Source of the DNA: a virus
IMG/VR virus record: IMGVR_UViG_3300041409_000307
Location: 1-22,095 of that record
DNA: 22,095 nucleotides
Direction: 5' to 3' (one strand)
The translations under genes and the position numbers were made by a program. Below, piece by piece: positions 7,693 to 20,139 of the stretch. The notes beneath the pieces are model-generated. The model had not been told where the DNA came from, ran no database searches, and saw nothing but the letters and a program-made list of their open reading frames with translations. How positions within the stretch are numbered: position 1 is the stretch's first letter; each line of letters starts with the position of its first letter.

Positions 7693-8325
7693 CTACAGAG
7701 AACCGATCACCGCCGACAGGTCCGCGAGCTCGGAAGTGGCCGACCAGCGGCGACCGGTCACGTAGATGAACCGGTCCCGGCTGTACGACTCGACCTGCAC
7801 ACCGTCCACGGTCCGCTTCCAGCCCTTGGCCACGTCGCCGTACCCGAACACGTGCAGGCCCTCACCGGAGCGGGACACCTCGACGTACGTCGCCGGGAGC
7901 CGGTCCAGCAGACGGGCCGCAGCCACCGTCGGCACACCGCCGATCAGGCAGTGGTCCAGGTCCAGGCACACGATCCCGTCGCCGTCCAACGCGAACCCGA
8001 CACCATCCCAGCCTCCGGCCTTCGCCGCCTCGTACGTGCACCACGTCGCCGGGTCGGTCGACGACGCGGCCTTGCCGTTCGGCCGCACCGGCACCTTCCG
8101 CCGGTTGTGGCACACCCACCGGTCCAGCACACGCAGCTCGACCGGCACCGGGTCGGGCACCACGTCGTCCGCGAGCCACAGCGGTGTCCGGTCGTCGAGC
8201 CACAACGGCTCCGGCAGGGTGCCCCGCTGGCGAGCTTTCGTCACCGCGGCGACGGTCACGCCGCGCGCTTCGGCGACCTGCGCGAGGGTCAGCAGCCGCC
8301 TACCGGATCCGTCGTAGAGCTCCAT
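7693..8325 (-). CDS. Stand-alone primase/polymerase (prim-pol) domain protein with N-terminal HTH
   Basis: A 210-aa protein. Residues about 11-35 (LLTLAQVAEARGVTVAAVTK) look like a helix-turn-helix. The remainder is the N-terminal prim-pol domain of bifunctional primase-polymerases: CLDLDHC with metal ligands D122 and D124, SRSGEGLH at 151-158 with H158, then a segment with RFIYVTG. There is no helicase domain, so it is much shorter than plasmid RepA-like prim-pols. It is the first gene of the packaging cassette, not of the replication block, which is unusual. A priming or DNA-end role is possible, but function is inferred only. ATG 8325 has no clear ribosome binding site and may be leaderless. 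Confidence 0.8.
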   Translation of the reverse strand: MELYDGSGRRLLTLAQVAEARGVTVAAVTKARQRGTLPEPLWLDDRTPLWLADDVVPDPVPVELRVLDRWVCHNRRKVPVRPNGKAASSTDPATWCTYEAAKAGGWDGVGFALDGDGIVCLDLDHCLIGGVPTVAAARLLDRLPATYVEVSRSGEGLHVFGYGDVAKGWKRTVDGVQVESYSRDRFIYVTGRRWSATSELADLSAVIGSL

Positions 8326-9047: not shown

Positions 9048-9668
9048 TCAGCTTCCCCACCAGACGACGCCGCGTGTCTTCGCCCACCTGCGGATCTTCG
9101 CGAACGCGGCCGTCCGGATGTGACACACCTGAACGTCGGTGACACCCAACCGGGCCCCGATCCGCACCAGCGTCTCGTCCAGCAGATACCGCCGCACCAC
9201 AACCTCACGCTCCTTCGCCGACAGGGCCCGCAGCACATCCGCGACGAACAGCCGATCATCCACAGCCGCGACGGCGCGGGACGCCGCCAGGTCGGGAACA
9301 TTCCACACGTAGTCGTCGTCATCGCAGCCGTCGAGCGCGACCGCCCTCTGCCTGTGCTCCGGCAGCTCGTCGACCGTCACGCCGCGGGCGAGCTCCGTGC
9401 GGGTGAGGGAACCCCGGCGCCGCATCTCGTCGATCAGCGCACCCCGCATACGCGGCCACACGAAGTTCTGCCAGGACGCCCCGCCGTGCGGTGTCCAGCG
9501 GGTGAGCGCGGTGAGCCCGTGGTAGACGGCCTCGCTGGTCATGTCGTCCACATCCCAGCCGTCGCTGACGGTCATCGGGTACCGGCGCAGGTGCGCGCGG
9601 GCCACGCTGCGGGCTATGGCGAGGAGCCGGGCCGCGTCCTTGTCGGGGTCGAACCGATCGGAGTCCAC
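9048..9668 (-). CDS. Phage sigma-70 family sigma factor (FliA/WhiG-like)
   Basis: A 206-aa RNA polymerase sigma factor with regions 2 and 4. Region 2 is in residues about 20-90: AHLRRYP, DVDDMTSEAVYHGLTALTRW, then FVWPRMRGALIDEMRRRG. Region 4 is near the C-terminus: LRALSAKEREVVVRRYLL, then IGARLGVTDVQVCHIRTAA, a helix-turn-helix for -35 recognition. A linker rich in acidic residues (GCDDDDY) separates them. GTG 9668 is chosen because a GAGGGGGG site lies about 10 nt upstream; GTG 9719 in the same frame is an alternative. It probably redirects host polymerase to phage promoters, perhaps those of the late cassette that follows. Confidence 0.85.
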   Translation of the reverse strand: MDSDRFDPDKDAARLLAIARSVARAHLRRYPMTVSDGWDVDDMTSEAVYHGLTALTRWTPHGGASWQNFVWPRMRGALIDEMRRRGSLTRTELARGVTVDELPEHRQRAVALDGCDDDDYVWNVPDLAASRAVAAVDDRLFVADVLRALSAKEREVVVRRYLLDETLVRIGARLGVTDVQVCHIRTAAFAKIRRWAKTRGVVWWGS

Positions 9669-9746
9669 CTCACTTCGACCCCCCTCGGAGCTCCGGTGGG
9701 GGCGGCGGCCGGCAGCCACGGGTCGACTGCCGGGCCGCCCTGGGGG

Positions 9747-15637: not shown

Positions 15638-16053
15638 GACGCCTCGCCACCCTCCGGCGGGATCCGACGCCCCACCCGGCGCAGCAACGGCGTCACATTC
15701 CGCGCCGGCAACTCCCCGACCTGCGGCACCGCGTGGCCGTCCGCGATCGCCTGCCGCTGAGCCCGGTACGCATCGAGGTAGGCGGGCACGTCGTCCGGGT
15801 CCACCGGCGGCGGCGGGACGGTGTCGGCGCGGCTGAGCCGGGCGGCGCGGATCCGTTTCACGCCGTCGCGGACCTCCGCCACCCCGATCCACTGCGAGGT
15901 GCGGGTGTAGTGCTCGGTGACGGCGGCGGAGGCGTCGGCGAAGGGGATGTTGGCGAGGGCGTCGTGCCAGGCGGCGACGTCGGTTTCGCCGATGGTGCGC
16001 CGGTCGTAGGCGGCGCATTTCGCGAGGAGGGTGGCGGTCTCGGACGGGGTCAT
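15634..16053 (-). CDS. Replication-associated hypothetical protein (139 aa)
   Basis: ATG 16053 with a strong AGGAGG 7 nt upstream. The helical N-terminal region (TPSETATLLAKCAAYDRRTI, then DVAAWHDALANIPFADASAA) resembles a protein often coded directly after initiator genes in actinophages; it may be a helicase-loading or initiator partner by analogy with lambda P or DnaI, but no AAA motif is present. The C-terminus is Pro-rich then basic (PLLRRVGRRIP). Coupled to the initiator gene by a 4-nt overlap. Confidence 0.65.
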   Translation of the reverse strand: MTPSETATLLAKCAAYDRRTIGETDVAAWHDALANIPFADASAAVTEHYTRTSQWIGVAEVRDGVKRIRAARLSRADTVPPPPVDPDDVPAYLDAYRAQRQAIADGHAVPQVGELPARNVTPLLRRVGRRIPPEGGEAS

Positions 16054-17009
16054 GCCTGGTCCTCCTGGGCTCGGAGTTTCGCGGCGAGGGTCAGTCCGGC
16101 GCCGACCCGTTGGTCGGTGGTGGACAGGGCCGCGCCGTTCGTGCCGTTGCGGACGGCCAGCTGCCCGGCTGGGCGGTTCATGACGTCGTTGACGAACGAC
16201 GGCAGCGCACCGGGCCCGGTGCCGCCCTTGCGGGCCCAGGCGGCGAGACCTTCGCGGATGTGGTCGGCGGGTACGCCTTCGTGGAGCATGCGGGCGACTT
16301 CGACGCCGATGCCGTTGACGACCTTGCCGGGTGGTCGGCGGTCGCAGCGGTCGGTCCATTCGACGAGGATCGATTCGGCGGCGCCGGGGTTGCCTTCGGG
16401 CTGGACGACGGACGCGGTGCCGCGTGTAGGTGTCGGTTGTGGTTCTGGTGTTGGTGCTCCTACTTGGAGACTTACGTAACCACCTACACCGGGGTCATCG
16501 AGCACGGCATCTGGCATGCCATCCGGGATGCCATCGGACATGCCATCTCGGATGGCTTCTGGAATGCCCTCCCGGAGTGCCTCGATCACAGCCTCGGTGT
16601 CCTTCGGCCGCTTGTCCTCCGGCAGCCTCGACAGCTCGTGCGCAAGCACCAATCGCAGCCTCGGCGACTCCGTCTTCATCGCCTCGTCCCGCGCCGCCGG
16701 CCAGTGGTTCGGGTTCCGCCACCCGCCGTCGTTGCGGATGAACGATCGGATCAGCACCTCCTCGGTGTCCTCGTCCACGACCACGAACCGGTGTCGTGCG
16801 AGTTCGTCCAGTGCGGCCCCGACGACGTCCGCGGACGTGTTGGCGGCCAGTCGGCTCCACCGCCTGACCGACAGCGTGATGACGCCGGCGGCGTTGAGCT
16901 TCGGCTGGGACAGCAGCAGCATGTACAGCCATTGGGCGTCGCGGCTGCGTGTGGTGACGTCGTCGTCGCGCCAGATGCGGAGCGCGATCTGCGCGTAGTT
17001 GCGTGCCAT
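16050..17009 (-). CDS. DnaD/O-like replication initiator protein
   Basis: A 319-aa protein. Residues 1-105 contain a winged HTH typical of phage initiators: YAQIALRIWRDDDVTTRSRD, then QWLYMLLLSQPKLNAAGVIT, then AALDELARHRFVVVDEDT. A linker of tetrapeptide repeats, (D/E)G(I/M)P, fills residues about 146-170. A Pro/Thr-rich stretch follows, then a C-terminal helical domain (EVARMLHEGVPADHIREGL) ending LAAKLRAQEDQA. ATG 17009 overlaps the HNH stop by one base. By analogy with lambda O, it would bind the origin and recruit the helicase. The 12-bp DNA repeats coding for the linker are a candidate origin. Confidence 0.75.
   Translation of the reverse strand: MARNYAQIALRIWRDDDVTTRSRDAQWLYMLLLSQPKLNAAGVITLSVRRWSRLAANTSADVVGAALDELARHRFVVVDEDTEEVLIRSFIRNDGGWRNPNHWPAARDEAMKTESPRLRLVLAHELSRLPEDKRPKDTEAVIEALREGIPEAIRDGMSDGIPDGMPDAVLDDPGVGGYVSLQVGAPTPEPQPTPTRGTASVVQPEGNPGAAESILVEWTDRCDRRPPGKVVNGIGVEVARMLHEGVPADHIREGLAAWARKGGTGPGALPSFVNDVMNRPAGQLAVRNGTNGAALSTTDQRVGAGLTLAAKLRAQEDQA
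16424..16489. repeat. 9-bp inverted repeat in a lower-GC stretch of the initiator gene
   Basis: GTGTAGGTG (16424-16432) and CACCTACAC (16481-16489) are perfect inverted copies about 48 bp apart, with the palindrome TTACGTAA (16472-16479) inside. Bases 16441-16500 are about 55% G+C by count, low for this window. Together they could be the opening region of an origin. Confidence 0.45.
16504..16575. repeat. Six tandem 12-bp repeats, candidate iterons of a replication origin
   Basis: Six in-register units start at 16504, 16516, 16528, 16540, 16552 and 16564. The three central ones begin with ATGCCATC; the others differ at one to three positions in those eight bases. A weaker seventh unit may follow at 16576. 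They lie in the initiator gene and code for its DG(I/M)P linker repeats. The placement matches lambdoid phages, whose origin iterons sit in the initiator gene. Confidence 0.55.
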
Positions 17010-17599
17010 CAGCCGCCGTCCTCGTCGGCGAGGTTGGCGGCGGCAATCTGTCGGGCGACCTGCTGCATCTCGCCGATCTGCCGCCAGGCGATGCCGCAGA
17101 AGTACCGCCACGTGTCCTCTGGCTCGACCCTCCAGGCCGCCATCGCCTTCCGGATGGCTTCGGTGAGCAGCGGCGCCGTCATGCCCGCGGCGATGAAGCG
17201 GTCCACTGTGTCTTCCCAGCCGAGAGGGCGTGGCACAGGCAGTTTCTGGGTCCCGTGTGTCCATCCGGACCAGACGCTGTCCACGTGGCCGCGGTAGAGC
17301 TGCTTCTCGTTGAGCTCCATCGCGAACACCTCGGCGGTGAGCTTCATGGCGCCGGCCCAGCGGAGCGCGTCGGCGGCCACGTCTGCGACGAGTGGCGCAC
17401 CTGGGGGGGTGGCGCTCTTGCCGCTGTTGCAGGGCCTGCAGGAGGCGACGAGGTTGCTGGGGTCGTCGGTGCCGCCGAGGGCGCGTGGGATGACGTGGTC
17501 AACGGCGAGGGGGACGCCGGGTGCGGTGGCTCCGCAGTACCTGCAGGCGTGGTTGTCGCGTCTGAGGATTTCGTAGCGGAGCCTCTGGGTGACGCTCAT
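17009..17599 (-). CDS. HNH endonuclease with long C-terminal helical domain
   Basis: A 196-aa protein from ATG 17599, with AAGGA 10 nt upstream. Residues 5-60 are a full HNH domain: C19/C22, D34-H35, N49, C54/C57 and N58 (CRYCGATAPG, AVDHVIPRALGG, then a CRPCNSGKS). The following 130 residues are helical (LRWAGAMKLTAEVFAMELNE, then TWRYFCGIAWRQIGEMQQVA) and do not match a nuclease fold I know. It is fused or co-evolved with the replication module, because it overlaps the initiator gene by one base. A gap of 67 nt upstream breaks the otherwise overlapping operon. Confidence 0.8.
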   Translation of the reverse strand: MSVTQRLRYEILRRDNHACRYCGATAPGVPLAVDHVIPRALGGTDDPSNLVASCRPCNSGKSATPPGAPLVADVAADALRWAGAMKLTAEVFAMELNEKQLYRGHVDSVWSGWTHGTQKLPVPRPLGWEDTVDRFIAAGMTAPLLTEAIRKAMAAWRVEPEDTWRYFCGIAWRQIGEMQQVARQIAAANLADEDGG

Positions 17600-17666
17600 G
17601 TGGGGGGTTCCTTCTCCCTGCGGCGGTGCTGGGGACGGGGCGCGGGTGGGGGTCACCCCGGGCCGT

Positions 17667-19166: not shown

Positions 19167-19336
19167 GGCTGGAACACCTCGCGGGCGACGTCGGCGATGT
19201 AGTCGGCGGGCTGGTCGTCGAGCGGCGGCCGTGCCGGCAACGCTGGGCGTCGGGTGGTGGTCCATGCCCAGGCGCTGAATGCGGCGGCGGCAAGGATGAG
19301 GGCGGCGGTGAGGGCGATGGCCCCGGCGGCGGTCAT
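19163..19336 (-). CDS. Small membrane-anchored protein (57 aa)
   Basis: ATG 19336 with GGGGGAG just upstream. An N-terminal hydrophobic helix (AIALTAALILAAAAFSAWAW) is followed by a basic/Pro stretch and a short C-terminal helix (DYIADVAREVF). One membrane pass with a cytoplasmic tail is likely. Function unknown. Overlaps both neighbours by 4 nt. Confidence 0.7.
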   Translation of the reverse strand: MTAAGAIALTAALILAAAAFSAWAWTTTRRPALPARPPLDDQPADYIADVAREVFQP

Positions 19337-20139
19337 CGGGCTCCCCCGTCGAAGGTCAGGACGGACTCGGACAGGCGGCGGGCGATGGCCTCGCACTGCT
19401 CTTCGCGTTCCTCGATGAGGACGGCGTGCATGCCGAGGGCGCGGGCGGCGATCGCGGTGCTGCCGGATCCGGCGAAGGGGTCGATGACGGTGCCGCCGGG
19501 TGGGCAGGCGTAGGCCAGCATCGGCAGTAGGAGGCCCTGCGGCTTCTCGGTAGCGTTGCCGTGCCGTGCTTTGCCGCGCATGTTGGGGACGCGGATGACG
19601 GAACGCAGAGCGCGGGTGCCGTCATCGGTCCAGTCGACGGCACCGAGTTTCCCGCCACTGAGCTGCTCGGCGTGGTCGACGGTTCGCCGGACGGTGCTCT
19701 TGTGTGGCGGACCGGTGCGCGGCACGCGGGGGGCCTGGTGGTACACGTCGGTCCACCGGCCCTGGTACCAGAACAGGGCGTGCTCGTGGACGCAGTTCAG
19801 CCGGTCCGATGAGGACGGCCGGGAGCCGGTGTTCTTCTCCCACACGGCGTGCCCGTCGTCGTCGGTGCCGATGGTGTCCTGCGAGTACCGCCACCCGGCG
19901 GCTTCGATCTCGCCGTGGTGGGCGAGGAAGACGCGCATCGACCCGAAGCACCACATGGCTTTGGCGACCACTGCGGCCTGCTCGGGCCAGCCGTCGGGCC
20001 AGCGGTCCCAGGTGTGGCCGGTCGAGCCGTACGGCGGGTCGGCCAGTATCAGGTCGGCGTCGGCCATGTACGGCAGCAGGTGCCGGGCGTCGCCGTGGTA
20101 CAGCGACACGGTGTCGTCGGAGTAGTAGAGGCCGTTCAT
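19333..20139 (-). CDS. DNA methyltransferase, N4/N6 type, beta class
   Basis: A 268-aa S-adenosylmethionine-dependent DNA methyltransferase. The catalytic motif DPPY is at residues 34-37 (LILADPPYGSTG). The cofactor motif comes late, DPFAGSGST at 220-228. This order (catalytic first, cofactor last) is the beta class, which methylates adenine N6 or cytosine N4. The middle part (WEKNTGSRPSSSDRLNCVHE, ALFWYQG) belongs to the target region. ATG 20139 with GGAAGG 6 nt upstream. No restriction partner is nearby, so it is an orphan methylase, probably protecting phage DNA from host restriction. Confidence 0.9.
   Translation of the reverse strand: MNGLYYSDDTVSLYHGDARHLLPYMADADLILADPPYGSTGHTWDRWPDGWPEQAAVVAKAMWCFGSMRVFLAHHGEIEAAGWRYSQDTIGTDDDGHAVWEKNTGSRPSSSDRLNCVHEHALFWYQGRWTDVYHQAPRVPRTGPPHKSTVRRTVDHAEQLSGGKLGAVDWTDDGTRALRSVIRVPNMRGKARHGNATEKPQGLLLPMLAYACPPGGTVIDPFAGSGSTAIAARALGMHAVLIEEREEQCEAIARRLSESVLTFDGGAR

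Follow-up and report, generated by a model that had tools for sequence, protein, structure and literature searches.

Why should the gene of a phage replication initiator carry, within its coding sequence, a run of short tandem repeats lying next to a segment of lower G+C content? The sequence analysed here is an IMG/VR virus record of 22,095 bases, which we call the window, and a first-pass annotation had read such a run within it as a replication origin. Our comparisons support that reading at the level of sequence, from which the function is deduced: the array very probably represents the iterons of an origin in the style of lambda O, overprinted on the initiator gene and followed by an opening segment. 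The gene and its protein are laid out as follows:

16050..17009, minus strand: replication initiator gene, a predicted open reading frame of 319 amino acids
About residues 1-157 of the protein: N-terminal domain resembling a winged helix-turn-helix (AF2 model)
Residues 164-203: disordered linker (AF2 model)
Residues 208-288: C-terminal helical domain (AF2 model)

The AlphaFold model has a mean pLDDT of 82, and its N-terminal domain is confidently modelled, with a pattern of helices and strands that fits a winged helix-turn-helix. A tblastn search with the protein matched 355 actinophage records, many of which carry the label 'replication initiation protein' or 'RepA-like replication initiator'. 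The profile matches to PHROG 8064 (E 2.2e-69) and PHROG 3171 (E 6.5e-53), both named 'replication initiation protein', are strong, and on these matches the protein can be assigned to the actinophage replication initiation protein family PHROG 8064/3171. Its match to PHROG 1701, a DnaD-like helicase loader, is weak, and the 'O-like' PHROGs 391 and 277, which a few members of the initiator family do match, are not matched by the window protein. Searches of Pfam and NCBIfam returned no match and fold and sequence searches of the PDB nothing significant, while a search of a viral fold library placed phage replisome organizers among the distant matches. As for the surroundings, the initiator gene is immediately preceded by an HNH endonuclease gene (17012-17656), and the window further contains a Prim-Pol-like fragment (7693-8325), the gene of a sigma-70-like protein (9048-9719) and that of an N6/N4 DNA methylase (19333-20139). 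Another IMG/VR contig (3300035687_000031) shows 99% identity to the final 81 residues of the initiator, and is unusable for comparing the repeats because its match starts only beyond the array, where the contig ends.

The array itself consists of the following units, each 12 bp long and given on the coding strand:

16491..16574, minus strand: putative iteron array of seven 12-bp slots with core GATGGCAT, recognised by TRF, codon shuffles and comparison with relatives
16563-16574: unit 1, CGGGAGGGCATT
16551-16562: unit 2, CCAGAAGCCATC
16539-16550: unit 3, CGAGATGGCATG
16527-16538: unit 4, TCCGATGGCATC
16515-16526: unit 5, CCGGATGGCATG
16503-16514: unit 6, CCAGATGCCGTG
16491-16502: degenerate unit 7, CTCGATGACCCC

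The six in-register 12-bp units that the first-pass annotation had described in the initiator gene are real, with a degenerate seventh in addition, and their TRF score of 83 is the highest in the 22-kb window. Its statement that they code for the linker between the two domains holds in part: the array does run into the disordered stretch of residues 164-203, but in the structure model it starts within the final confidently modelled helices of the N-terminal domain. The units encode REGI PEAI RDGM SDGI PDGM PDAV LDDP (residues 146-173). Three exact GATGGCAT cores lie within 16515-16550, with diverged copies flanking them on both sides, and these three are the only copies in the 22 kb, with 0.29 expected when the peptide is held fixed in synonymous shuffles (p = 0.0002). 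The GAT codons of the gene (5/24 Asp; GAT background 20%) all fall inside the array (p = 0.0016). The periodicity of the window array alone is not significant against synonymous shuffles (p = 0.14), because the encoded peptide repeats too, and taken by itself this array is only moderately convincing as something more than a repetitive peptide.

The segment that adjoins the array contains several short elements:

16424..16490, no strand: lower-GC segment, candidate opening region (GC 0.52; family-wide GC dip)
16424..16456, plus strand: degenerate hexanucleotide run GTGTAGGTGTCGGTTGTGGTTCTGGTGTTGGTG
16424-16432 and 16481-16489: arms GTGTAGGTG and CACCTACAC of a 9-bp inverted repeat
16472..16479, no strand: palindrome TTACGTAA, third conserved element, unique in the window and enriched in relatives
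16481..16490, plus strand: CACCTACACC (GGTGTAGGTG on the coding strand), a short copy of the TAG/CTA track

With a GC content of 0.52 versus 0.70 for the window, this segment ranks in the lowest 0.3% of 67-nt windows, which bears out the earlier mention of a lower-G+C stretch beside the units; it is of lower GC relative to the window, not AT-rich in absolute terms. The 9-bp inverted repeat reported there is also present, and the hairpin predicted from it is no better than those of shuffles (z -0.65). One of its arms coincides with the first 9 bases of CACCTACACC and the other with the first 9 bp of GTGTAGGTGTCGGTTGTGGTTCTGGTGTTGGTG. The TAG/CTA track is found in the window as short copies only (16457-16469 and 16481-16490). 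In the nearest relative (L020), CACCTGCACCTACACC stands on the coding strand at the place corresponding to the GTGTAGGTGTCGGTTGTGGTTCTGGTGTTGGTG run, and we compare CACCTACACC, as a track, with the (GGTGTA)4 of Thermobifida phage P1312.

The comparison with relatives was made on 206 genes with the N-terminal domain, the window's included, collected from phage records, viral contigs and genome contigs and reduced to 106 representatives of less than 85% nucleotide identity. Most representatives carry 11- or 12-bp arrays behind the N-terminal domain, tandem repeats in this post-domain stretch having a period of 12 (24 cases) or 11 (22 cases). The strongest cases far exceed synonymous shuffles, P1312 for example having 44/48 matches versus 34.6 +/- 1.9; no clear array was seen in the homologs prophi91-3, L063 and L077. 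The conserved DNA core is mostly AACCCTT/AAGGGTT, and the window, unlike this majority, shares the ATGGCAT/ATGCCAT type with some relatives. Among 97 distinct initiators, AACCC/GGGTT is found in both orientations, with 456 copies in 42.4 kb of post-domain DNA versus 38 in 36.8 kb of domain DNA, and versus 229 in synonymous shuffles of the same post-domain peptides. The spacing of these copies peaks at 11 bp (43 vs 3.6) and 12 bp (96 vs 29), plus multiples. The departure from the 18-19 bp of lambdoid iterons, already remarked upon for the window, extends to the family, where the period is 11-12 bp.

The elements behind the array are conserved as well. Over 78 genes, the stretch of 90 nt that follows the array has a GC content of 0.594 versus 0.659 in synonymous shuffles, a dip that is modest in size (p ~1e-12, optimistic like the other family p-values because genes less than 85% identical were treated as independent), and its 6-nt periodicity is raised. 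De novo k-mer counting in 96 genes, with peptides fixed, brought out three groups: AACCCTT, in 51 genes versus 17 expected; CTACTCCT and CTACTACT, in 21 versus 0.9 and 13 versus 0.3; and TTACGTAA, in 15 versus 0.2. Downstream of the arrays, many relatives have a tri- or hexanucleotide track and some also have TTACGTAA, the usual order being iterons, then TAG/CTA track, then TTACGTAA; in other relatives the track lies on the opposite strand, or reads GGTGTA, GGGGAA, CAACAG or GAACAG. TTACGTAA stands in a single reading frame in nearly all genes, and protein constraint is therefore possible there. The layout of iterons followed by a lower-GC segment, which had been likened to that of lambda from the window alone, is thus a recurrent trait of the family.

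If these repeats act in replication, how specific is their position? For 77 of 100 loci of 5 kb, the densest core window falls in the post-domain stretch, versus 9.4 expected by length, and the densest 200-nt core window lies there in each of the five phage genomes that we scanned (four of them complete, P1312 for 50 of its 60 kb). We also searched blindly in the reverse direction, looking in 2.9 million viral contigs for AACCCTT three times at fixed spacing: a spacing of 12 bp gave 71 stretches, 46 of them directly behind an initiator domain, one of 11 bp gave 70, with 25 so placed, and one of 13 bp only 4, three of which were on stretches also carrying the initiator. For the core of the window, GATGGCAT three times at 12 bp, the same contigs yielded three stretches, and this search gives no support because none of them is beside a recognised initiator. 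GC skew, which had been suggested as a check, does not point to the initiator gene: across the five phage genomes there is no consistent minimum at it, and the measure is uninformative.

Sites for autoregulation would look much the same, and the array could be an operator through which the initiator represses or paces its own transcription, replication starting elsewhere. Such a role would suit a predicted DNA-binding protein, and autoregulatory binding sites often repeat. However, the array begins about 435 bp into the gene, away from any promoter position; a lower-GC segment with conserved elements of its own adjoins it; and no denser core cluster exists elsewhere in the five phage genomes to serve as an alternative origin. 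We consider an operator quite improbable.

A second alternative is that the repeats are a feature of the protein, a flexible repetitive linker whose DNA repeats come from the peptide or from recent slippage. The disorder of the linker in the model and the periodicity of the window, not significant once the peptide is given, are what one would expect in that case. The family tells otherwise. Peptides over the array differ: P1312 encodes EGFP, Bran NPSP and Eyre DPSV, the peptide of Tortellini is TP-rich, and those of period-11 arrays (GAL1, prophi68-1, Twister6) are mixed; 11-bp arrays pass through the three frames in turn, so that each unit alters the peptide. Copies of AACCCTT fall in each of the three frames (53/32/23), more than one frame being used in 37 genes; this core stands in either orientation and turns up again in diverged lineages. 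In another clade, individual genes (L152, L160) contain ATGGCAT/ATGCCAT in each of frames 0, 1 and 2, for which reason it is a DNA element there; in the nearest relative of the window, peptide and DNA are conserved together in a single frame, and in the window itself codon choice is biased toward the repeat. Some genes go further. In L056 (an identical gene is found in genome contig L093) the initiator stops directly after the N-terminal domain, and the array runs on past the gene end with stops in all three frames. In L045 and L092 the gene is split, and the repeats come after the stop of the N-terminal domain, open in an overlapping frame, while Abba has different 11-bp repeats after an early initiator stop. 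These split genes argue that DNA, not linker protein, is what is kept. Relatives thus retain the DNA repeats and not the peptide, the opposite of the outcome that the first-pass annotation had named as contrary to an origin. For the family, the protein explanation is largely refuted, and we consider it highly improbable.

A partition (parS-like), packaging or recombination site is hardly credible: the parS of RedRock is indeed made of arrays of eight 8-bp repeats (PMC7157519), but in the five genomes read no parA or parB is annotated beside the initiator and all five have an annotated integrase or recombinase, and it is with the initiator gene that the array goes together, rather than with terminase or par genes.

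Arrays are also found outside the family of the window. Several of the remaining matches of the blind search fall inside other initiators, either DnaD-like (PHROG 1701) or O-like. AACCCTT/AAGGGTT arrays at 11-12 bp occur in the PHROG 1701 initiators L256, L276, L307, L315 and L348; core repeats are present within the domain-coding part too in L307, L315 and L348, and behind the arrays of L256 and L307 comes a GAACAG-type track, which translates as QEQEQE. Relatives of these PHROG 1701 and O-like array-bearing initiators include phages of Klebsiella, Acinetobacter and Pseudomonas. A DnaC-like gene adjoins the initiator in the Klebsiella phage, the Acinetobacter phage relative is annotated 'DNA replication protein O', and the core array is short or absent in the genes of these two. 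Judged from these sequences, the array pattern is common to many actinobacterial phages and some phages of other bacteria. More tentatively, a two-part origin may be overprinted on a whole superfamily of DnaD-like and O-like winged helix-turn-helix initiators across actinophages and others, with a core that can be inverted (most often AACCCTT, spaced 11-12 bp) for double-strand binding and, behind it, a tri- or hexanucleotide TAG/CTA strip for single-strand loading that resembles DnaA-trios and the DnaD recognition element (DRE); the low-complexity linker (NPSP, EGFP, QEQE) would then be a by-product of selection on DNA, not a protein feature.

Within the 11-bp clade, the residue immediately preceding a conserved KW, in the part predicted to bind DNA, varies with the core of the iterons: it is S with ATGGCAT, mostly A with ACCGTTC, and T, V or R with AACCC, but the window has R (compare L162, L170 and L192, with A, versus L014, L164 and L165, with T/V, versus L152 and L160, with S). 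This residue is a possible determinant of iteron specificity, a lead only, drawn from few examples.

Returning to the array as the iterons of an origin, we infer by analogy how it might work. The repeats would be double-stranded binding sites for the phage's own initiator, at the junction of DNA-binding domain and linker. Several initiator molecules, bound to cores about one helical turn apart (11-12 bp), would build a nucleoprotein complex that would strain and open the adjoining lower-GC segment, whose TAG/CTA track would perhaps be held single-stranded. The C-terminal domain might then recruit either a helicase loader or the helicase of the host, as lambda O and SPP1 gp38 do.

Our searches of the open literature gave no published origin for the PHROG 1701/8064/3171 family, and judged by that literature the origins of actinobacteriophages using this initiator are apparently unmapped. 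We likewise found no earlier description of these repeats in open-access literature, which is weak evidence of novelty. The nearest experimental study concerns a different RepA family, that of Miko and Jeeves, two mycobacteriophages with extrachromosomal prophages: a plasmid can replicate on repA and its flanking sequence alone, and the origin, left unlocated, was suspected by the authors to lie either upstream of repA or within it (PMC7157519). By eye, the RepA of Miko has no resemblance to the family of the window, and inspection of the sequence and a periodicity scan revealed no 11/12-bp array in its gene; we did not retain it as an experimentally tested homolog, since it appears to be a different protein. 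The 200 bp upstream of Miko repA include GTACGTAATTACGTAA, with a single TTACGTAA and a further near copy. Our reading would allow origins to be predicted at the level of sequence for hundreds of sequenced, culturable phages, would account for the unusual repetitive linkers of some replication proteins through DNA sites overprinted there, and suggests that phage origins may contain a single-strand element similar to DnaA-trios.

How does this candidate origin compare with known ones? In lambda, the iterons lie inside the initiator gene beside a lower-GC segment that opens (PMC5043065). The window and its family resemble the lambda origin in gene O in having repeats within the coding sequence of the initiator, next to a lower-GC segment, and resemble lambda O in having an initiator built of an N-terminal DNA-binding part, a linker and a C-terminal part. 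They differ in the iterons, which in lambda are inverted repeats of 18-19 bp to which O binds as a dimer and here are 11-12 bp, mostly direct, with a core of 5-8 bp in either orientation. The oriL of SPP1, in gene 38 (gp38), likewise has direct repeats in the initiator gene, an AT-rich unwinding element and a separate helicase loader (PMC6316719); the likeness is one of layout, and SPP1 has a second origin, oriR. In the oriC of B. subtilis, 5'-CTACTATTACTTCTACTA-3' presents DnaA-trios on one strand and the DnaD recognition element on the other (PMC10201434). As in that origin, where boxes are followed by trios, relatives of the window have tracks of the CTACTACTACAACTACATC type immediately behind the iterons; unlike in it, the window has only short copies, and the strand and sequence of the track vary among relatives. 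An origin placed inside the initiator gene is therefore a layout already known from lambda and SPP1, whereas the type of iteron and the breadth of its occurrence appear to be new.
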